Shown here: positions 39,382-52,322 of the stretch, one piece after another
Layout of the letters: each line of letters starts with the position of its first letter
Position numbering within the stretch: position 1 is the first letter of the stretch
NCBI RefSeq assembly: GCF_016919385.1
Contig: NZ_CP070351.1
Location: 1,612,001 to 1,676,000, forward strand
From: Gordonia sp. PDNC005
Lineage (GTDB): Bacteria; Actinomycetota; Actinomycetes; Mycobacteriales; Mycobacteriaceae
DNA: 64,000 nucleotides
Reading direction: 5' to 3'
The notes under the pieces: generated by a model
Seen by the model: the letters and a program-made list of their open reading frames with translations, nothing else
Told to the model about the DNA's origin: nothing
The model's database searches: none
Translations under genes and position numbers: made by a program

Positions 39382-40002
39382 TCACGAGGGCGACGCGAAC
39401 GCGATGATGTTGTCGCGATAGCCGAGCGGCGGGCCGACGAACGGTCCGCCACACGTCACCAACGCCAGGGTCTCCGGGCCGGTCTGGCGGTTGAGCTCGT
39501 CGTAGGGCACTGCATCGGTTCCGGTCCCGTTCTTCTGCGCGTCGATCACCGACGTCACGTGGTAGTCGATCCTGGCACGCGACGCGGTCACCAGGGTCAC
39601 GGTGTCACCGGCAGTCAGATCGGCGAATCGGGCCGCATAACCCGCGCCCTGCACGATGTCGTCGACGTGCCCGGCGACGACGACCGTCCCGGAACCCGAT
39701 CCGGGGAGCGACGAGTCGACCCACCAGCCGAGGCGTCCGATGTCAGTCGGTGGCAGAAGGGTGCCCTCGGCGTCGGTCGCGACCGGATCCGTGGGCGCAC
39801 CCTCGTCGTCGATCTCAAGGCTGACCGGAGTGGACGGGTGATCGGACACCGCGGTCACCGGTGGTCGCAGGCTCTGTCGCCCCTGTGTCGGGGTGGGGGA
39901 CGCCGGCTGCTCTCCGCATCCGGAGACGAGCGCCACCGTGACGAGAAGCGTCATCGGGGCGGCGAGTGCAGCGGCGATCCGACTCGTTCGGCGTGTGGCC
40001 AT
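39382..40002 (-). CDS. Class F sortase
   Basis: 206 residues from ATG 40002, which has a perfect GAGGAGGA ribosome-binding site 6 nt upstream. The N-terminus is a signal sequence with a lipobox-like VSGC (Cys at about residue 28), followed by a Pro/Thr-rich linker. The sortase core has the catalytic His in VVVAGHVDD (about 111), Cys in ALVTCGGPF (about 183) and Arg in LGYRDNII (about 195). Class F sortases transpeptidate surface proteins in actinobacteria. The neighbouring gene upstream encodes the probable substrate. A longer GTG start at 40083 lacks such a ribosome-binding site. Confidence 0.9.
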   Translation of the reverse strand: MATRRTSRIAAALAAPMTLLVTVALVSGCGEQPASPTPTQGRQSLRPPVTAVSDHPSTPVSLEIDDEGAPTDPVATDAEGTLLPPTDIGRLGWWVDSSLPGSGSGTVVVAGHVDDIVQGAGYAARFADLTAGDTVTLVTASRARIDYHVTSVIDAQKNGTGTDAVPYDELNRQTGPETLALVTCGGPFVGPPLGYRDNIIAFASPS

Positions 40003-40083
40003 CGGTCCTCCTCTCGCATGGGACATGTCGGGGCTCGACGACCTGCGGTTACCGCTCGGGTCATTCACCTGAATGATCGACAC

Positions 40084-41052
40084 TCACCCGCCCATGCCGG
40101 TCGGCACCGACTTCACGGGCACCCGGTGGGCCGGGTCGCGAACCACTCGATAACGGCTCGGCAAGTCGTAAACGGTCACTGTGACCTTCTTGCGGTCGAC
40201 CACGGTGATACGGCGTTGATCGGCGTCGACGACGAACCCCGTCGGTGTTCCCGATTCAGTGACCGAATGGCATCCTGCGGGCACACCGGTCAGACGCGCG
40301 GTGCCGTCGACTCCGGTGAACACGGTCTCGACCAAGTCGCCCGCGCATGTCTCGACGGTGAAGGCCGCGCCGCGCAGCGGCGCTCCCGTCACTCGATCGC
40401 GCGCCACCGCCACGATTGACCCGCCGCCGACGGGTTTCCGCCGGAGTTGGAAGGTGAAGGAGCTGATCTTTCCCGGTTCCACAACGCCGGATCGGAAGAG
40501 GCTGCCTTCGTAGCGGTATCCGTCGGGCGCGCCGGATGCGGTGATCGTGATCTCACCTGCAGGAACAGTGATGCTGGTCGGCGTGACGATCGAGCGCCGA
40601 CCGTTCGTGTCGGTGATCTGGAGCTCGGCGCCGCGTACGGGTTCACCAGTGTCCGAATCGAGGGCTAGCACCGACACAGTGCCGTCACCGGTGAGTTCCG
40701 ACGTCGGGGTGATCGAGATCGTCGGCGGGATGCTCGGTTCGGCCGGCGATGGTGTCGTCGGGACGGGCGTCGTCGGTTGTGTCGAGGGAAGCGTCGTCAG
40801 GCCCGGCGCGGTGGACGGTGTCAGCCGCGGCCTGTGAGGTGGGCGGCTGGCATCCGGCATCGGTGTACCCGTGCGCGGCGTGACCGACGGCGTTCCGGCG
40901 CGAGGTGGTGTGAACGTGCGCGGAACATGCGAGTCCGGGCCCGTTGTGGTGATCGGATCAGCGGCGGCAGGAGAGACGCCGACGATGAGCAAGATCACGA
41001 CTGCGCCGATCGCAAGGCGGCGTCGCCTGCGCGGCGTCTGTCGTCGATCCAT
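40084..41052 (-). CDS. Secreted surface protein with prealbumin-like/SpaA-type repeats
   Basis: 322 residues. A signal peptide with a basic start (MDRRQTPRRRRRLAIG) and AAA-DP cleavage near residue 31 is followed by a Pro/Thr/Ser stalk to about residue 115. Two related beta-sandwich repeats follow (GTVSVLALDSDTGEPVRGAEL and GSIVAVARDRVTGAPLRGAAF begin them), as in SpaA/Cna-B domains. The C-terminus ends VPVKSVPTGMGG with no membrane helix or basic tail. It lies 81 nt upstream of the sortase on the same strand, so it is the probable substrate, although it lacks a usual LPXTG sorting signal. Confidence 0.75.
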   Translation of the reverse strand: MDRRQTPRRRRRLAIGAVVILLIVGVSPAAADPITTTGPDSHVPRTFTPPRAGTPSVTPRTGTPMPDASRPPHRPRLTPSTAPGLTTLPSTQPTTPVPTTPSPAEPSIPPTISITPTSELTGDGTVSVLALDSDTGEPVRGAELQITDTNGRRSIVTPTSITVPAGEITITASGAPDGYRYEGSLFRSGVVEPGKISSFTFQLRRKPVGGGSIVAVARDRVTGAPLRGAAFTVETCAGDLVETVFTGVDGTARLTGVPAGCHSVTESGTPTGFVVDADQRRITVVDRKKVTVTVYDLPSRYRVVRDPAHRVPVKSVPTGMGG

Positions 41053-43440: not shown

Positions 43441-44982
43441 TCAGGCGCCGAGCACCTGCTTGCGCAGATCTCCCTTCACGAGCTTGCCGGTGGGTGTTCT
43501 CGGGAGTTCGTCGATGAACGCAATGTTGCGCGGCACTTTGAATGCCGCGAGTTCGGCTCGGGCGAAGTCCTTGAGTTCCTCGGCGAGTTCATCGGACGGG
43601 ACGACGTCCTCCATGAGCTGGACGAAACCGGCGGCGACTTCGCCGAGGTCGTCGTCCGGAAGCCCGATCACTCCGACGTCGTACACCGCCGGATGGTTGA
43701 TCAGCACGTTCTCGGCTTCCTGCGGATAGATGTTCACACCGCCCGAGATGATCATGAACGCCTTCCGGTCCGTGAGGTACAGAAACCCGTCCTCGTCGAC
43801 GTAGCCGAGATCGCCGGTGGTCGCCCAGTTGGGATGATCGGGATGCTGTGCGGCGGCCGTCTTCGCCGGATCGTTGTGGTAGGCGAACGGCATCTCGTCA
43901 CGCTCGAAGTACACGGTGCCGACCTCGCCCGCCGGGAGGTCTGCGCCGTCGTCGCCGCATACGTGGATCACTCCCAGCACGCCGCGGCCCACCGAACCGG
44001 GTCGCTCGAGGGCGTCCTGCGACCCGATGAGAGTGACACCGGCCGCTTCGGTGGCCGCGTAGTACTCGTTGATGATCGGACCCCACCAGGCGATCATCGC
44101 CTTCTTGACCTCGGCAGGGCACGGCGCGGCCGCATGGATGGCTACTTGGAGACTGGACACGTCGTACGACGCCCTCACCTCGTCGGGCAGTTTGAGCATG
44201 CGCACGAACATCGTCGGCACCCATTGGCTGTGTGTGACCCGATACTCCTGGATGAGGCCGAGAGCCGCTTCGGGCTCAAAACGATCCATCAGGACGACGG
44301 TCCCGCCGAGCGCGTTCACCATCGCGCAGTACCGCAGGGGCGCGGCGTGGTACACGGGCGCGGGGGAGAGGTAGACCGAGTCGGTTCCGAATCCGTACAC
44401 CGGTCCGAACACCTGCGAGATCAGATCGAAGGAGTCGTCAACCTGGGTACCGGGCAGATTCGGCTTGATGCCCTTGGGGCGACCGGTGGTGCCCGACGAG
44501 TAGAGCATGTCCGCGCCGCGCGGCTGATCGGTGAGCGGCTCAGCCGACGACCCGGCGAGGACGTCGTCATAGTCCACGAAGCCGTCGATTGGGCCGGCCC
44601 ACGCCACCCGACGGTCGGGTGCGGACAGCGCGTCGATCTCGTGCGCGAGCGACACGGCGTCCGCCACGTTCGCCGACGCGAAGACGATCTTCGCGCCGCA
44701 GTCGTCGAGGATGTAGTTCACTTCGGGTGCAGTCAGATGGTGATTGACGACGGTTACGTATAGGCCACTGCGGATCGCGGCCCAGTACACGTCGAATACC
44801 CGCAGGTCGTTGTCCGTCACGACGGCCACGGTGTCGCCGACCCTCAACCCGAGACCGCGGAGATGGTGGGCGATTCGCGTCGAGTTGTCGGTCAGCTGCG
44901 CGTAGGTGACCGTCTCACCGGTACTCGGGCGGATAACTGCCGGCTTGTCCGGGGTGGTCGTGACGTAACTGCCTGGATACAC
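43441..44982 (-). CDS. Acyl-CoA synthetase (AMP-forming, FadD family)
   Basis: 513 residues from GTG 44982. An ANL-superfamily ligase that adenylates a carboxylate and transfers it to CoA. The P-loop YSSGTTGRPKGI is at about residue 158, the A5 motif YYAATEAAGVT near 312, the A7/A8 blocks TGDLGYVDEDGFLYLTDRKA follow, and the catalytic Lys is in TPTGKLVKGDL near the end. The 65-nt gap to the FMO gene on the same strand suggests one transcription unit with FMO and hydrolase. Substrate chain type not predictable. Confidence 0.92.
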   Translation of the reverse strand: MYPGSYVTTTPDKPAVIRPSTGETVTYAQLTDNSTRIAHHLRGLGLRVGDTVAVVTDNDLRVFDVYWAAIRSGLYVTVVNHHLTAPEVNYILDDCGAKIVFASANVADAVSLAHEIDALSAPDRRVAWAGPIDGFVDYDDVLAGSSAEPLTDQPRGADMLYSSGTTGRPKGIKPNLPGTQVDDSFDLISQVFGPVYGFGTDSVYLSPAPVYHAAPLRYCAMVNALGGTVVLMDRFEPEAALGLIQEYRVTHSQWVPTMFVRMLKLPDEVRASYDVSSLQVAIHAAAPCPAEVKKAMIAWWGPIINEYYAATEAAGVTLIGSQDALERPGSVGRGVLGVIHVCGDDGADLPAGEVGTVYFERDEMPFAYHNDPAKTAAAQHPDHPNWATTGDLGYVDEDGFLYLTDRKAFMIISGGVNIYPQEAENVLINHPAVYDVGVIGLPDDDLGEVAAGFVQLMEDVVPSDELAEELKDFARAELAAFKVPRNIAFIDELPRTPTGKLVKGDLRKQVLGA

Positions 44983-45073
44983 GTGACGCTCCTCATAGTG
45001 GGGGGTGAATCCGACAGTAACCGAGCGCTCGGTCGTTCGGCGTCCCTTCGTCCGAGCCGCCTGTGCTCTCGCC

Positions 45074-45079
45074 TACGAT
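45074..45079 (+). promoter_or_regulatory. -10 box of the kinase-STAND gene (leaderless)
   Basis: TACGAT ends 6 nt before ATG 45086, which favours that start over the more upstream in-frame codon at 45005 near the divergent ligase gene. Confidence 0.5.
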
Positions 45080-45085
45080 CAGCGA

Positions 45086-48060
45086 ATGATCGAACCGATC
45101 GAGCCTGCGCCGTCCCAGCTCGTAGGCGACCGGTACCGCCTGGTCGGGCGCATCGGCCGCGGCGGAATGGGTGAAGTCTGGCTGGCGCGGGACGAACTCC
45201 TCGACCGCGACGTCGCGGCCAAGCGGATACTGACGGTCAGCGGTGCCGACACCGAACAGGCGACGATTCGCAGGCGTCGGGCGATCCGCGAGGCTCGAGC
45301 AGCGGCGCGGCTCTCTCACCCGCACGCGGTGGCGATGTTCGACGTGGTGGTCGACGACAACGATCCATGGCTCGTGATGGAGTACTTTCCGTCGGTCAGC
45401 GTCGCAGACCTGCTCCGGACCGTCGGCGCTCTCGCACCGATCGAAGCAGCGCAGATCGCCGTCCACGTCGCACAAGCGCTCGCGCAGGCGCATGCTGCGG
45501 GGCTGGTGCATCGCGACCTCAAACCCGGCAACATCCTCGTGTCCACGGCTGTCGCGGGAAGCACGGCGGGCGTGGTCAAAGTCGCCGACTTCGGAATCGC
45601 GCGGTCGGACGACGATCCCGCGATCACTCGGAGTGGGATCGTCACCGGCACACCGACGTACTTCTCGCCCGAGGTCGCGCGCGGCGCCGAACCGACATCG
45701 GCGTCCGACGTGTACGCGCTCGGCGCCACCCTGTACACGATGGTCGAGGGTCGACCGCCGCATTCGGACTCGGACAACGTGATCGCAACACTTCATCGGA
45801 TCTCGAGCACCGAGGTCCGTCCGATGACAGTGGAGACCGATCTCGACGTGGTCGTCGCCAGGCTGCTCGACAGGGACGTGGACAGGCGACCGTCGATGGC
45901 CGCTGCCCGCGAACTTCTGGCGGACTGGGTGGCGGCGTCGGCGTCCACCGCCGACCTCTCGCGGTTGGCGGACCGGTCCGACACGGCAGGCGAACTGTCG
46001 TCCTCACCCGCGACGTTGCTGCCGTCGGTGCCCTCCTCATCGATGCCCGGGCGACGCACGCGCAGCGTCCCCGCAGAGCTGACGTCGTTCGTAGGGCGCG
46101 TGGACGACCTCAACGAGGTCAACGGTCTGCTGCACGGCCACCGCATGGTTGTCGTCACCGGGCCGGGCGGTGTGGGAAAAACGCGGCTGGCCCAGCGCAT
46201 CGCCTTGTCCAGAGACGACGCTGACGGTCCGTGGTTCGTGGAGTTCGACGGTGTGGGTGATGCGTCCGGAGTGGCCGATGCACTGATCTCCGCCCTCGGG
46301 ATCACAGCTCCGGGAGGTCTGGCCGCGGTGATCCAGAATCTGGCGTTCCGCACATGCCTGCTCGTCTTCGACAACTGCGAGCACCTCGTCGACCCGATCG
46401 CCGATGCTGCGCACCAGATCCTCCAATCCTGTCCGCAGGTGTCCGTCGTGGCGACTAGCCGCACGTCGTTGGGTGTGCCGGGCGAACGGCGCCACGCGCT
46501 CGCACCGCCGGACGACGGCACCGCACTTTTCATCGCGCGCAGCCCTCACCCGGTCAGCATTGCCGATCTCGACGACGTCCGTCGCCTGTGTGACGCGGTC
46601 GATCACCTGCCGTTGGCGATCGAACTCGCCGCGGCCCGCACTCGGATCCTGTCGGTACGCCAGGTGCTTTCCGGACTGTCCGACAATCTGAACCTCCTCC
46701 GACGAGACGACAGCGGCAGGCACTCCCGGCGGACCAGCCTGTCGGCTGTGATCGGCGAGTCGTTCCAGGACCTCACCGCGTCGCGGCGCTCATTGTTGAC
46801 GGAGCTGTCGGTCTTCGTCGGCTCGTTCGACGTCGATGCGATCGCCGCCGTCACCGGACGGGAGACAGGACTCGTCGACGATCTCGCGGGGCTGGTCGAC
46901 GAGTCGCTCGTCACCGTGGTGGGAGGGGACCCACGCCGGTACCGCCTGCTCGACACCGTCCGCACGTTCGCAGCGGATCAGATGGGGGACCAACGCCGTG
47001 CAGAAGTGACGGCTCGGCGACTCGAATGGACGGTTGCCCTCGCAGCGGAGGCGTTCGCGGGGCTCCGCGGCCCGGCGTCAACGGAATGGATGAAGCGCGT
47101 CGACGCGGACATGCCCACCATCCGCGTGACGCTCGACGACGCGCTCGGCACCGACCCGGTGGCGTATGCGCGGATAGTCGGTGACCTGTACTGGATCTGG
47201 TATCGGCGTGGCCGGATCGACGAGGGCTGTCGCTGTTGGACGCGATTCTCGACGAACCCGGCTCCGCATGGGCAGTCGACACCGTCGTGGTCCGGTGTCT
47301 GGTCGGGCGGGCCTTGTTGGCTCACCTCGCCGGAGACTTCCACACGATCGCCGCGTGCGGCGAGCGGCTTCGAGAGCTCGCCGACGGGTTCGGCGAGGAG
47401 CCGCGGCCCGGTGAACAGCGACGGGCGGCCGCCGAGGCCGCGGCGATGCTCTCGTATCTGTCTGCCGGTGCAGGCGAGCTCACGGCTACGCGGGAGTCAG
47501 CCGCGCGGGCGCGTCGGTTCGCGATCGCCGAGGGTTCGGCGTGGACCGCGGCCGAGATCGAGATCGCGTTGTCGGTCGCGGCAATGCGGGGCGGCGACCC
47601 GGTGGAAGCCAGGTCGCATCTCGACGTGATGCGCCGGACAGCCGAGGAGCACGGGTTCGGTTGGCTGCACACGTCAGCCCTCTGGCTGCTGGCCAAGAAC
47701 ATCCTCCGCAGTACGGGTGACACCGCTGAACCGCGTGAGCTGTTGACGAGGATGATCACGGCCTGCGACCGGGAATCGGACCTGACGTCGTGGATGGTCG
47801 GGATGGCCACGCTCGCGTACGTCGAGTTCGTCGACGACGATCACGAACGGGCGTCGCTCCTGCTCGGCGCCGTCGCCCGCCGCAGTGACGAGTCGGGGTT
47901 CCACCCGGAGAAGCTCGATCCCGTCGACATGGCCGAGTTCACGGCGACCATGGCGGCATCGATGCCCGCCGGGGTGCTCCGGGCGGGTGACGAAGCCGGA
48001 CGTTCGCTCGATCGGAACGGCATCGCCGCACTCGTCGCCGCGTGTGCGCGTCGCCGGTGA
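45086..48060 (+). pseudogene. Ser/Thr kinase-STAND NTPase fusion, split by a -1 nt frameshift
   Basis: Starts MIEPIEPAPSQLVGDRY. Domains: Hanks-type kinase (about residues 15-275; GRGGMGEVW, AAKRIL, HRDLKPGN, DFGIA, SPE), Ser-rich linker, then a STAND NTPase (Walker A GPGGVGKTR at about 358, FDNCEHL Walker B, LPLAIELAAAR), then a TPR-like helical tail. At about 47231 the frame breaks: the upstream frame runs into unrelated Trp/Ser/Pro-rich codons to 47629, whereas the tail continues in another frame from 47236 to 48060. Restoring one base gives 2,976 nt, exactly 992 codons. The closest architecture I know is PknK-like kinase-ATPase regulators. The downstream SARP protein is paralogous over the NTPase and tail. 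Deletion, sequencing error or recoding are all possible. Confidence 0.8.
47236..48060 (+). CDS. Detached C-terminal TPR-like part of the kinase-STAND gene
   Basis: 274 codons in the frame that continues the kinase-STAND protein, opening LDAILDEPGSAWAVDTV (first codon TTG). Helical repeats resemble the tail of the SARP gene downstream: SDLTSWMVGMATLAYVEF matches its YDLTSWMVAVATLAYVAY, and SGFHPEKLDPVDMAEF matches TGYDPERMDPIDLAGY. It has no convincing start or ribosome-binding site of its own, so it is probably not an independent gene but the displaced end of the same protein. Confidence 0.5.
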   Translation: MDAILDEPGSAWAVDTVVVRCLVGRALLAHLAGDFHTIAACGERLRELADGFGEEPRPGEQRRAAAEAAAMLSYLSAGAGELTATRESAARARRFAIAEGSAWTAAEIEIALSVAAMRGGDPVEARSHLDVMRRTAEEHGFGWLHTSALWLLAKNILRSTGDTAEPRELLTRMITACDRESDLTSWMVGMATLAYVEFVDDDHERASLLLGAVARRSDESGFHPEKLDPVDMAEFTATMAASMPAGVLRAGDEAGRSLDRNGIAALVAACARRR

Positions 48061-48130
48061 CGGGTGAAGGACGGCTCCGGGTCCGATGTGACGGCTCCGC
48101 AGTGATGCGCTCGGACGTCGAATTACTCTG

Positions 48131-50932
48131 ATGCGGGTGGAGATCGACGTCGATGTGCTCGGACCGTTGCGAGTCCGTGTCGGTGGTGTGGGCGTTCCGA
48201 TCGGCGGCCCGCTGCCCCGTGCGCTGCTCTGCCGGCTGATCGACGCCGCAGGCGACACGATCCCGGAGAGCACCCTGATCGACGAACTGTGGCGCGGTGC
48301 GCCACCGAAGTCCGCCGTGTCGACCCTGCACGGGTACGTCTCGACTCTGCGGCGCTCTCTTGAACCCGCTCACGCGAAGGCTCAACCGACCGTTCTCGTG
48401 CGGAACGGAGTCGGATACGCCATCCCGCGGGACAAGGTGGCGCTCGACAGTCGGCGATTCGATGATCTCGTCGCCTCCGCCCGTGCGACCGCCGATCAGC
48501 ACGAGTGGCGCGCAGCGTTGGCGACGTTCGACGACGCGCTCGGACTCTGGCGCGGACCGGCGTACGCGGACGTGATCGAATGGGACTTCGCCCAAGTGGC
48601 GGCGGCCGCACTCGAAGCGAGGCGCGACGGTGTCGTCCTGGACCGGTTCGCAGTGCTGTCCGACCTCGGTCGTCACGACGACGCCGCAGCCGGACTCAGA
48701 GCGATCGTGGAGCAGTCGCCCCTCGTCGAACGGGGATGGGAGCTGCTGGCGCTCGCCGAGTACCGGTCGGGCAGACAGGCCGCGGCGATGGCGAGCCTGC
48801 GACGCGCTCGGACGGTCCTCGCCGAGGAGCTAGGAACCGATCCCGGACCGGGTCTACGCAGGCTCTACGAAGCGATGCTGCGCCACGACCCTGAACTGAT
48901 CCCGCGGCCCGCCACCGTCGTGCCGACCAGGCGCACCCGGTTCGTGCCTGCCGAGTTGACCACTCTGGTCGGGCGTGACGACGAGGTCGCGGCAGTGGCC
49001 GGTCTGGTCGAGGAGCATCGGATGGTCTCGGTCACCGGGCCGGGTGGAGTCGGAAAGACACGCGTCGCGCAGCGTGTGGCGGGAGTCTCCGGGCACCGCG
49101 ACGGGGCGTGGTTCGTTGAACTCGCAGGTGTCCACGATGCCGTGGGGATCAGCGATGCGATGGTCAATGTGCTCGGTCTCACGGCGCAGGGCGGGGTCGA
49201 CATGCTCGGTACGATGCTGCGCGACCGGCGGCGCCTCGTGGTCCTCGACAACTGCGAGCATCTCGCGGGCGCCGTCGCCGACGTCGCCGAGAGACTGCTC
49301 AAGGCGTGTCCGGACCTGAGAATCCTGACGACCAGTCGAGTTGCGCTCGGTGCGGACGGCGAATGGATCCATCCACTGAGCCCGCTGGCCGACGCCACCG
49401 ATCTGTTCTGCGAGCGCAGCTCGGAGCCGGTTCGCGATGCCGATCGGGACGATGTCCGGCGGTTGTGCGCGGCGCTCGACAATCTCCCTCTCGCAGTGGA
49501 ACTGGCGGCCGCGCACACCAGCGTGCTCTCCGTGCGCCAACTGCTCGAGCGGTTGGACGACCGGTTCGCGCTCCTGGAAGCCCGATCGTCGCGGACCGTC
49601 GGGCGACACCTGAGCATGCGCATGGTCATCGACGCCTCGTACGCCGCTCTGACCCCGTCGCAGCAAGCCCTGATGCAGGACCTCGCGATCTTCGAAGGAG
49701 GTTTCGACTTCGACGCCGCGGGTGCGGTGTCGAAGCGAGGGGCCGACGTTCTGCCTGATCTCGCGGCGCTCGTCGACGCGTCCTTGGTCACGGTCGTCGG
49801 TGGGGATCCACGCCGCTACCAGATGCTCGAGGTATTGCGCGAGTATGCGATCGGGGAGTGCTCACCGGAACGGCGCTCCCATCTCGTGGCAGCGCACATC
49901 GAATGGGCTGGTGCGATGGCCGAGTCGGCGTATCCCGGACTCCGCGGACCCGACTGTCTCGCGTGGATGCGGCGGATCGAGGCGGAACTGCCGAACGTGC
50001 GGGCCGCCCTGGCGAACTGCGTCGACACCGACGTCACGACCTACCTGCGGATCGTCGGCGACCTGCACTGGTTCTGGTTCCGTCGTGGTCTCATCGACGA
50101 GGGAAGCCGTCTGCTCGCCCCGGTGGTGAGCGACGCCGCGTTGTCGTCGCCGTTCGAGCAGCGGGTCCGCGTCCTCTCGGGCCGCAATCTCGTCGCGTAC
50201 CTCGCGGGGGACGGCGAGACGATCTTCGACTCTCTGCAACGTCTCCAAGCGCTGCTTGCCGAGATCGGCGACGATCCGGCGGACCCGGCCGATCGAGGGG
50301 CCGCGGCGGAGGCTGCGACGATGCTCGCCTTCTTCTTCGCCGGAGCCGGTGCGATCGTCGAGTCCGCACAATTCGCTGCCGTGTCTCGGCGTCATGTCGG
50401 GATGCACGGCGACAGCCCCGCGCGTGGAGAACTCGAACTCGCCGTCGGAACGGCGGGCCTGAGGTCCGGCGACCTCGAGTCGGCCGAGACTCATCTGGGG
50501 GAGGCCATTCGGATCGCCGACGTCAACGGCTACGACTGGCTCCTCGCGTCGGCGTGCTGGATCCTCGCGAAGAGCAGGATCGCGGCAGATGACCTGCTCG
50601 GGTCCAAGCGGCTGCTCGGGCGGATGGTCGACGCCTGCGAACGTTCGTACGATCTGACGTCGTGGATGGTCGCCGTGGCGACGCTCGCCTACGTCGCCTA
50701 TCGAACGGGTGACGAACTGATGGCTGCCCGATTGGTGGGCGTCGTTCGTCGTCGAACAGATCAGACGGGCTACGACCCCGAACGCATGGACCCGATCGAC
50801 CTCGCCGGATACGGGCGAGAGATCCACGATGGAATCGCCCCTGACGTGTACGAACGCGGCGTCGCCGAAGGCGTCGACGCCGACCGAGTCACGGTCACAG
50901 CGCTGATCGCGGGGTGCGTCTCCACCGATTGA
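48131..50932 (+). CDS. AfsR/SARP-family transcriptional regulator with STAND NTPase
   Basis: 933 residues. Domains in order: OmpR-type winged helix (about residues 6-95, GPLRVRVGGV, LIDELWRGAPPKSAVSTLHGYVSTLRR), bacterial transcriptional activator domain BTAD (about 100-245, ending RARTVLAEELGTDPGPGLRRLYEAML), STAND NTPase (Walker A GPGGVGKTRVAQR at about 302, LVVLDNCEHL, LPLAVELAAAH) and a TPR-like tail to the end. SARPs activate secondary metabolism or stress genes. The NTPase and tail are paralogous to the kinase gene immediately upstream, with only 70 nt between them, so they may act in one pathway. Confidence 0.9.
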   Translation: MRVEIDVDVLGPLRVRVGGVGVPIGGPLPRALLCRLIDAAGDTIPESTLIDELWRGAPPKSAVSTLHGYVSTLRRSLEPAHAKAQPTVLVRNGVGYAIPRDKVALDSRRFDDLVASARATADQHEWRAALATFDDALGLWRGPAYADVIEWDFAQVAAAALEARRDGVVLDRFAVLSDLGRHDDAAAGLRAIVEQSPLVERGWELLALAEYRSGRQAAAMASLRRARTVLAEELGTDPGPGLRRLYEAMLRHDPELIPRPATVVPTRRTRFVPAELTTLVGRDDEVAAVAGLVEEHRMVSVTGPGGVGKTRVAQRVAGVSGHRDGAWFVELAGVHDAVGISDAMVNVLGLTAQGGVDMLGTMLRDRRRLVVLDNCEHLAGAVADVAERLLKACPDLRILTTSRVALGADGEWIHPLSPLADATDLFCERSSEPVRDADRDDVRRLCAALDNLPLAVELAAAHTSVLSVRQLLERLDDRFALLEARSSRTVGRHLSMRMVIDASYAALTPSQQALMQDLAIFEGGFDFDAAGAVSKRGADVLPDLAALVDASLVTVVGGDPRRYQMLEVLREYAIGECSPERRSHLVAAHIEWAGAMAESAYPGLRGPDCLAWMRRIEAELPNVRAALANCVDTDVTTYLRIVGDLHWFWFRRGLIDEGSRLLAPVVSDAALSSPFEQRVRVLSGRNLVAYLAGDGETIFDSLQRLQALLAEIGDDPADPADRGAAAEAATMLAFFFAGAGAIVESAQFAAVSRRHVGMHGDSPARGELELAVGTAGLRSGDLESAETHLGEAIRIADVNGYDWLLASACWILAKSRIAADDLLGSKRLLGRMVDACERSYDLTSWMVAVATLAYVAYRTGDELMAARLVGVVRRRTDQTGYDPERMDPIDLAGYGREIHDGIAPDVYERGVAEGVDADRVTVTALIAGCVSTD

Positions 50933-51027
50933 ACCGCGGGTTCAAGCTGATTCCAATCGTCCCGGCGCATCCTGTCGACACTCAATCGGCACGGCGCTCC
51001 CGGGCGCCAGAAACGAAGGAATCACCC

Positions 51028-51681
51028 ATGACATCGATCGGCGGCCCCATCGCATTTCCAGGATCAGAACAGGCCGAACGTCTCGACACCGCTCCATTGG
51101 AGACCGTCGCCCTCCATATCGTGAGGGCTGTCGGCATCGCACTCGCGGTGAGTGCCCCGATCTGGGCGGTGGTGATAGTCCTGTACGGCGACGTCGTCGA
51201 CTTCGGATGGCGCACTCTGCTGGGCGGCGTGACCGCCCTCGCGTTCCAGTCGGCGATCGTCGGGCTGCTGCGCGTTGAGGAACGGACACGCGCCATGAGC
51301 CGCCCGGGCTCGCCGGGCACCATCGCCACGATCGGCTTCCGCGTCGAGTATGCGCTTATGGGAGGCGCCATGGTGTCAACCGTGTTGGACGCTTTCGCGC
51401 TGATCGAAGGCACAGTCGTGTGGACGGTGTTCGACGCCTGCTGGCCGCTGTCGATGCTGGGCATGGTGATCATCGGTGTGCGAATCGCGATCACCGCTCG
51501 CTGGCAGGGCGCCCTGCGGTGGCAGACGCTCTTCGCGCAGAGCTGGTTCGTATGGGGCATTCCCGCGATGGCGTTCGGGACTGTCGGCACCGTCGTCATG
51601 ATCTCCCAGGTAGTCCTCGGTTACGGGGTCCTCGGCGGTCTGCTGGCCGCCCGACCCGCCACAACGACGTCCGACGCCTGA
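51028..51681 (+). CDS. Small integral membrane protein, unknown function
   Basis: 217 residues from ATG 51028 with AAGGA 7 nt upstream. About five to six hydrophobic segments (for example IVRAVGIALAVSAPIWAVVIVL and WPLSMLGMVIIGVRIAI). No motif recognised. It lies 95 nt after the SARP gene on the same strand and ends before a strong hairpin, so it may be the output or partner of the SARP/kinase pair. This is inferred from position only. Confidence 0.7.
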   Translation: MTSIGGPIAFPGSEQAERLDTAPLETVALHIVRAVGIALAVSAPIWAVVIVLYGDVVDFGWRTLLGGVTALAFQSAIVGLLRVEERTRAMSRPGSPGTIATIGFRVEYALMGGAMVSTVLDAFALIEGTVVWTVFDACWPLSMLGMVIIGVRIAITARWQGALRWQTLFAQSWFVWGIPAMAFGTVGTVVMISQVVLGYGVLGGLLAARPATTTSDA

Positions 51682-51695
51682 CCCCGCATACGACT

Positions 51696-51738
51696 GTGCC
51701 GCCGATCGTGACCACATGCTGGTCACGATCGGCGGCAC
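51696..51738 (+). terminator. Bidirectional hairpin terminator
   Basis: An 18-bp perfect stem (GTGCCGCCGATCGTGACC paired with its complement) around a 7-nt loop ACATGCT, between the convergent membrane protein gene and the TetR gene. No U-tract on either side. Confidence 0.75.
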
Positions 51739-51752
51739 ACGTCGTACCGGCG

Positions 51753-52322
51753 TCAACTAGCCGGTTTGCGCACCGACGCCTCGACGAGGTCCAGGACCGC
51801 GTGCAGGTCGTCCGTGGACTGGCCCGATGCGAGTCTCGTGACGATCCCGTCGAGTATCACGTCGAGGTAGGTGACGAGGACTTCGGGTTCCACGTCGTTG
51901 CGGAGACTGCCCGCCTGGCGTTTGCGCTCCAGGCGCGCGAGGGTCGCCGCCTCTCGGTCGGCAGCCTGGGATTCCCATGCCTTGCGGAAACCGGGATCGC
52001 TCCGGATCTTGCGGACGATCTCAAGTCTGGTGCTCAGCCAGTCGAAGTCCTTGGGGCGCGCGAGGATGTCGCGCATCACTTGGACCAGGCCCTGTCGTGC
52101 CGCGACGTCGGCCATTCGGTCGGCGTCCTCCCGCGCGAGCGCGAGGAACAACGCCTCCTTGTCCTTGAAGTGGTGGAAGATCGCGCCCCGGGACAATCCG
52201 GTCGTCTCCTCCATCCGCTTCACGGTGGCGCCCTCATAGCCGTACTGCGCGAAACAGTGCCGCGCGCCGTCGAGAATCTCCCGACGACGCGCGGCGAGCC
52301 GGTCATCGCTGACCCGTGGCAC
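51753..52322 (-). CDS. TetR-family transcriptional regulator
   Basis: 189 residues, GTG start. An N-terminal helix-turn-helix (EGATVKRMEETTGLSRGAIFHHFKDKEALF, shown as EGATVKRMEETT then GLSRGAIFHHF) is typical of TetR. It sits 31 nt downstream of acnA in the same direction, the place of Rv1474c, which in mycobacteria lies next to aconitase and probably regulates it. The C-terminal ligand domain is helical, without recognised ligand residues. Confidence 0.92.
   Translation of the reverse strand: MPRVSDDRLAARRREILDGARHCFAQYGYEGATVKRMEETTGLSRGAIFHHFKDKEALFLALAREDADRMADVAARQGLVQVMRDILARPKDFDWLSTRLEIVRKIRSDPGFRKAWESQAADREAATLARLERKRQAGSLRNDVEPEVLVTYLDVILDGIVTRLASGQSTDDLHAVLDLVEASVRKPAS

Follow-up and report, generated by a model that had tools for sequence, protein, structure and literature searches.

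Two adjacent genes on the plus strand of Gordonia sp. PDNC005 encode a Hanks-type kinase joined to a STAND NTPase (K) and a SARP-STAND regulator (S). They lie in a stretch of 64,000 nucleotides (the window; positions 1,612,001 to 1,676,000 of contig NZ_CP070351.1) of an assembly consisting of one contig of 4,260,791 bases (genome G000 in the surveys below). S was probably duplicated in tandem, the SARP output of the upstream copy being exchanged for a kinase, and both products would be STAND switches. The paralogy of K and S, their placement in the phylogenetic tree, the kinship of the kinase domain, the synteny and the purifying selection on K are supported by the sequences, and K arrived late, within a single clade. 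The parts of the two genes are as follows.

45086..47629, plus strand: K, 5' frame of the kinase-STAND gene, 847 aa to the stop, homologous to about 47230 only
45134..45907, plus strand: Hanks-type Ser/Thr kinase domain of K (Pfam PF00069, residues 17-274)
46046..47230, plus strand: NOD of K (NTPase, winged helix and arm), by homology to S
47236..48060, plus strand: K tail, predicted TPR-like sensor, no longer in frame with the 5' part (break near 47230)
48131..50932, plus strand: S, SARP-STAND (AfsR-like large SARP), 933 aa, intact
48218..48880, plus strand: SARP domain of S, with an OmpR-type winged helix-turn-helix (wHTH; residues 30-97) and a BTAD (residues 105-250)
48911..50104, plus strand: NOD and arm of S, with Walker A from residue 303
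50105..50929, plus strand: S tail, predicted TPR-like sensor from its homology with that of K

The first-pass annotation of this DNA had proposed that the two genes share homologous NTPase and tail halves, and the alignments bear this out. BLASTP aligned K and S at 46% identity over 467 aa (E 5e-131), up to '...IDEG', and their tails at 40% identity over 252 aa (E 2e-56). After K, the next match to the S STAND in this genome reaches 35% over query positions 6-398, so that K and S resemble each other well beyond the level of this further STAND. Both proteins have Walker A (GPGGVGKT), Walker B-like (LLVFDN / LVVLDN), TSR and LPLA motifs. The N-terminal outputs differ, as the annotation had also stated with correct coordinates. 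K carries a Pkinase domain (150.8 bits against a Pfam cut-off of 31.7) in which the catalytic motifs VAxK, HRD and DFG are intact, as are the Walker motifs further on, whereas S carries a wHTH (PF00486, 30.4 against 26.2) and a BTAD (PF03704, 119.9 against 22.1). The K protein used in the Pfam and NCBIfam scans was translated from 45086-47626 and thus includes an out-of-frame end.

With its wHTH-BTAD-NOD order, S matches the AfsR structure 8k60 in the PDB (E 6e-34). Residues 8-577 are aligned and cover the SARP and NOD parts; the S tail lies beyond the end of this alignment and is homologous to the K tail, which is modeled as helical repeats. The NCBIfam AfsR model NF053617 recognizes S (E 1.8e-50), yet with 171.9 bits against an equivalog cut-off of 1430, and S is therefore AfsR-like, not AfsR. 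Neither tail has a match among the Pfam TPR families, and the AAA matches of both proteins fall under the Pfam cut-offs. The structural model of the K ortholog P0003 (mean predicted local distance difference test score, pLDDT, 70.7) is good in the NOD and the tail, and shows repeated helices at residues 665-1018 with block pLDDT mostly above 90. Its fold matches are led by the STAND-TPR structure 6mfv, followed by Apaf-1, RPP1, MalT and CED-4, all at probability 1.00 and with TM-scores of 0.15-0.65, most of them low because the domain arrangements differ. By motif and model, K and S are predicted STAND NTPases with Walker A, Walker B and a NOD with winged helix, and behind the NOD a helical-repeat sensor is predicted, the sensor of K being out of frame in this genome.

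Read from 45086, the homology of K ends after '...RRGRIDEG' near 47230, the frame itself closing only with the stop at 47629, while the homologous tail sits in another open reading frame (47236..48060). Of the motifs that had been reported for both proteins, the Walker motifs are indeed shared, but the LTSWMV..ATLAY of K belongs to that other frame. Two lineages besides this one are open across the break site: P0001 (the K of G024) and its near-copy P0003 (97%) over the whole gene, and P0004, a partial record from a Gordonia metagenome-assembled genome that ends before the 3' end. A programmed frameshift at 47230 is thereby ruled out; the break is a defect of this gene copy (a mutation or an assembly error), not a common programmed frameshift. 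Since K is broken before its sensor, the pair is probably not operating as proposed in this strain, barring an assembly error.

The distribution of the pair was surveyed in 59 Gordonia genomes by a STAND search at E <= 1e-40. Matches were found in 28 genomes at 34 places, 30 of which were examined for the N-terminal domain (the other four, at 34-38% identity, were left out). Among these 30, a kinase N-terminus is present in G000 and G024 only, and the K/S pair thus occurs in 2 of the 59 genomes, this one and G024, and is rare. Close SARP-STANDs (SARP N-terminus, at least 51% identity) are present in six genomes (G000, G024, G052, which is Gordonia spumicola, G011, G031 and G032), and the STAND places other than these and K show 34-41% identity. 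In a sample of 401 genomes of the family, taken as the same draw for the SARP-STAND and MEMB (see below) surveys, SARP-STAND was detected at E <= 1e-70 in 28 genomes and 6 of 31 genera; G. spumicola is absent from the SARP-STAND, MEMB and kinase positives and apparently does not belong to this draw. All 17 loci opened among the 23 outside Gordonia start with a SARP, and none of the 17 holds a kinase of K's kind. Together with four Gordonia loci, this makes 21 of 21 inspected loci from genomes other than the two with K in which S stands without K. Among the best 120 of 4732 relatives in the protein database, the first two are the kinase-STAND clusters P0003 and P0004, and the following 19 (P0005-P0023) carry a BTAD. 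In two genomes of one genus, a second SARP-type gene lies on the opposite strand near the SARP-STAND (L165:10385-12352 and L179:9812-12001).

The phylogenetic analysis of the STAND part (54 rows, 696 columns, LG+C20) placed K (four rows) and S (three rows) in one group with 100/100 support, within which K alone is likewise supported at 100/100. Its sister group consists of the remaining four SARP-STAND rows from Gordonia, both lie within a larger SARP-STAND clade, and five kinase-STANDs of other genera fall outside K's clade. A tree in which K groups with the S of G000 and G024 only, meaning a duplication after the split from G. spumicola, was rejected by the approximately unbiased test (p 2e-7), a test in which long branches can sway the outcome. 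This rejection implies that the duplication predates the split and that K was apparently lost in G. spumicola, where the SARP-STAND directly adjoins the upstream acyl-CoA ligase gene. The order ligase, SARP-STAND, MEMB without K is found in G. spumicola, G011, G032 and G031. As the ligase-side upstream sequence of K resembles the ligase/SARP-STAND spacer of G. spumicola, K would occupy the old place of S, which is now second. The G. spumicola SARP-STAND gene (L044:8304-11120) is itself split, its first 97 residues being out of frame with the remainder; P0005, the public record, starts after them.

The kinase nearest to the kinase domain of K is a common one, present in 54 of the 59 Gordonia genomes at E <= 1e-70, and the domain is matched in 185 of the 401 family genomes at E <= 1e-80. 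The own-genome copy (G000:C1:864935-865762) lies within a 464-aa open reading frame that has a hydrophobic C-terminal stretch. In the kinase tree, built with 30 Gordonia copies of the common kinase and with six other own-genome kinase loci of which two yielded one row, K stands next to the common kinase family (100/99) and apart from the five distinct other own-genome rows. The identity of K to the common kinase is 57-58% in the nearest species and 49-55% in other genera among the matches listed. The likeness extends to the 5' end, where 55 nucleotides of the G024 K match the common kinase at 37 (G000) and 40 (G. spumicola) positions, and those of this genome's K at 34 and 37; the background over 1365 ATG-anchored segments of the window has a mean of 17.9, and one segment scores as high (52/55, presumably K's own start). 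A donor kinase from another genus is not favored by the identities among the matches listed, though the kinase tree sets K outside the sampled Gordonia copies. The proposal that a tandem duplication was followed by domain replacement is upheld by the common group of K and S, the kinase kinship and the four Gordonia genomes in which ligase and SARP-STAND stand together without K.

Between G000 and G024, the ratio of nonsynonymous to synonymous substitution rates (dN/dS) is 0.20 in the kinase and linker of K, 0.20 in its NOD and 0.26 in its tail, compared with 0.10 and 0.11 in S and 0.017 in the common kinase domain. K is retained, but loosely. The synonymous rate (dS) amounts to 0.9-1.3 in K and the SARP domain (45086-48880) versus 0.3-0.6 in the S STAND and the flanking genes, which may reflect recombination with another lineage.

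Several observations weigh against a tandem duplication of S with an output swap and a working switch in K. Rather than nesting among the 30 Gordonia copies of the common kinase that were sampled, the K kinase domain branches outside them, so that a donor from within the genus rests on the identity ranking and the 5' end, and the kinase part of the P0003 model is of low confidence. In the kinase and linker of K, dN is 0.18 against 0.005 in the common kinase domain, and K, being fast-evolving, missing in G. spumicola and broken here, may be dispensable. K also keeps fewer of the columns that are conserved among 30 related SARP-STAND rows, near-copies included: 8-9 of 10 invariant arm columns (S 10/10), 12-15 of 19 arm columns at the 90% level (S 17/19) and 88-91 of 110 NOD columns at that level (S 94-97). 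The 72 invariant NOD columns are kept alike by both proteins (66-67).

The two proteins may share their ancestry alone, the K sensor having drifted to a different ligand or protein partner, a reading that we rate only somewhat below even. The sensor is the fastest-diverging part of K, with 59% identity between G000 and G024 versus 85% for S, and it is 37-41% identical to S. It retains 22 of the 28 invariant tail columns (19/24 in the partial P0004; S 24-25) and 39/55 to 45/63 of those at the 90% level, as against 51-52/63 in S (43/62 and 52/63, respectively, in this genome). However, eight family-conserved columns (W803, S807, W810, K814, D841, S844, T851 and Y854 of S) are identical in all four K rows. 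The column conservation is compatible with, not proof of, a ligand common to K and S, and the first-pass suggestion of one ligand feeding two outputs is weakly supported.

The frame break could also be an assembly error, with the pair intact in this organism, which we consider possible but rather doubtful. This K is 90.2% identical to P0004 over 715 aa before the break and 91.0% over 211 aa after it; identity that is alike on both sides indicates a recent break or an assembly error, and the purifying selection on the K tail is in keeping with the latter. Against it, the assembly is a single 4.26 Mb contig of completeness 100, the break site has no run of more than three equal bases, and, in a 19-kb comparison with G024, each of the remaining genes matches over its full length in one frame. 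K could also be a decaying, largely dispensable duplicate that drifted after the swap, was lost in G. spumicola and is a pseudogene here, with no lasting signaling role beside S. The break itself, the lack of K in G. spumicola and the faster divergence of K than of S and the flanking genes speak for such decay, which nevertheless looks unlikely: dN/dS stays at about 0.2 along K and at 0.26 after the break, the two other lineages are open across the site with all motifs present (P0004 being partial at its 3' end), and the even identity to P0004 makes the break recent.

A relay in which K phosphorylates S, as in AfsK/AfsR or PknH/EmbR, is unlikely, although K and S are adjacent, AfsK phosphorylates AfsR and is encoded two genes from afsR (PMC10936776), embR and pknH share one operon (PMC9239209), and S has the Thr of Walker A. 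When three AfsR sites were mapped by eye on the S alignment, this Thr alone was present, and S391 and T506 had no Ser/Thr counterpart; S22 and S953 of AfsR fall outside the alignment. Phosphorylation by AfsK has little effect on AfsR activation and hardly alters AfsR activity in vitro (PMC10936776), and EmbR phosphorylation was not found in vivo under normal growth (PMC9239209). Moreover, S does without K in all 21 inspected loci of other genomes. It is very unlikely that a single ligand makes K and S assemble together into mixed STAND wheels, with one hub firing both outputs and K phosphorylating S inside; if true, natural swapping of effectors would have produced a switch with two outputs.

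For the tandem duplication of S with replacement of one output, the following course can be proposed. In S, a STAND NTPase carrying a TPR-type sensor would hold back the wHTH-BTAD output. A tandem duplication of S would have taken place in the common ancestor of a small clade of Gordonia, and the upstream copy, K, would have exchanged its SARP output for the catalytic domain and 5' end of a Hanks kinase akin to the genome-resident one. Both proteins would work as STAND switches, in which an inducer on the sensor leads to ADP/ATP exchange and oligomerization. In S, switching would free the SARP domain; in K, it would gather kinase domains, leading to their activation and to phosphorylation of a target, for which S is a plausible candidate. 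In AfsR, the NOD and TPR restrain the SARP domain and ATP binding relieves the restraint (PMC10936776), and in MalT-type STANDs the sensor is reported to lie behind the NOD with an effector at either end (PMC4381067). By analogy with these papers, we infer that S is an ATP-gated activator and K the same switch with a kinase output.

Compared with AfsR/AfsK, S has the same wHTH-BTAD-NOD order and a kinase gene nearby, but the STAND tail of K is a paralog of its neighbor's, whereas AfsK is described as membrane-associated with PQQ repeats (PMC1262709). The AfsK model NF053615 scores K at 105.6 bits against a cut-off of 1300, in the kinase domain only. PknK of Mycobacterium tuberculosis, a kinase fused to a STAND (PMC9045387, PMC4381067), is similar to K in architecture by its description as MalT-like; K differs in that its STAND belongs to the SARP-STAND subfamily, PknK being compared by description. 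Kinase-STAND-LuxR proteins (P0055 and relatives, in Rhodococcus/Nocardia-type genera) also combine a Hanks kinase with a STAND, but most keep the LuxR end and they fall outside K's clade. P0055 was matched in 92 of the 401 family genomes at E <= 1e-150 (two candidates scored per genome), many matches being full length and others STAND-LuxR only. The K-plus-S design does not recur with these proteins, a kinase-less STAND neighbor being present in none of 20 opened loci; a STAND neighbor occurs in one of the 20, is itself a kinase-STAND, and the locus was chosen for its known tandem. That locus (L246, G078:C2:147354-153949) contains tandem kinase-STAND-LuxR genes, and tandem LuxR-STAND matches are present in G150 and G137.

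EmbR and PknH resemble the present pair as a SARP-type regulator and a Hanks kinase in one operon and differ by the FHA domain that follows the BTAD in EmbR, no STAND being described (PMC9239209). The two are not known to be paralogous. Kinase-STANDs (PknK) and kinase/SARP neighbors (AfsK/AfsR, PknH/EmbR) are thus already in print. A kinase-STAND beside its own SARP-STAND paralog was not found described in the open-access literature, among the titles and abstract openings listed.

The surroundings of the pair comprise the following features.

43441-44982, minus strand: acyl-CoA ligase gene, divergent from K
44983..45085, no strand: divergent ligase/K intergenic region, whose ligase-proximal part resembles the G. 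spumicola ligase/SARP-STAND spacer
51028..51681, plus strand: MEMB, a 217-aa protein with hydrophobic helices, frequent neighbor of SARP-STAND
51753-52322, minus strand: TetR-like gene, named from sequence reading without a family search
beyond the TetR-like gene, minus strand: aconitase-like gene, named in the same way

The interval between ligase and TetR-like gene (44983-51752) is a variable slot, with a gap of about 0.1-0.2 kb in several Gordonia genomes and of 2-10 kb in others by coordinate subtraction. Its ligase/K end contains a perfect 14-bp palindrome, ACCGAGCGCTCGGT, at 45020-45033, the sole copy in the window. The comparison of sequences upstream of the ligase, read by eye, drew on 35 given loci, of which 15 were parsed and 13 were distinct. 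Among these 13, the exact palindrome is present in G000 and G024 only. A shorter core, CGAGCGCTCG, is found in G. spumicola, and certain other Gordonia genomes have more altered versions ahead of their ligase gene. An element like that of the window's clade, GCTCGGTTAC.GTC, is recognizable in L083, L085 and L092, which have no gene-sized ligase/TetR gap, and is missing or altered in others, e.g. L084, L086, L088 and L093. Because it is present where this gap holds no gene, it looks like a ligase element, and the ligase as a target of S through a divergent promoter is unsupported. Further upstream in the window, a sortase-domain gene adjoins a gene with a SpaA (prealbumin-like) domain (39382-41052).

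MEMB, characterized by the motif DxCWPLSMLGM..IG.R.AI..RW.G..RW, is probably a membrane protein, because of its hydrophobic helices. It matches no Pfam family, has 43 relatives at E <= 0.001 among 5.8 billion proteins, and is modeled as helices (pLDDT 89.6) without a fold match in the PDB (best E 0.37). MEMB adjoins SARP-STAND in all six Gordonia loci (6 of 6), whereas in other genera 8 of the 17 opened loci have the two side by side. In the family sample it is present in 19 genomes, 16 of which also have SARP-STAND, against 1.3 expected from the 28 SARP-STAND genomes (hypergeometric p 1.7e-18, uncorrected for kinship). By coordinates the two genes are adjacent in 14 of these 16 and about 14-15 kb apart in G128 and G143. 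MEMB occurs in three genomes that lack a SARP-STAND match (G025, G054 and G063), and conversely 12 of the 28 SARP-STAND genomes lack MEMB. The association of SARP-STAND with MEMB is older than that with K, and is common, not universal. The first-pass annotation had overlooked this older neighbor, together with the frame break and the rarity of the pair.

With relatives of the two donors present in one genome, the K-less state in related species and the fused product, the locus represents a natural experiment in STAND effector replacement. It is suited to testing whether paralogous STAND sensors retain one ligand after a swap of outputs. The older and wider association of SARP-STAND with MEMB offers a handle on what AfsR-like regulators sense or control.

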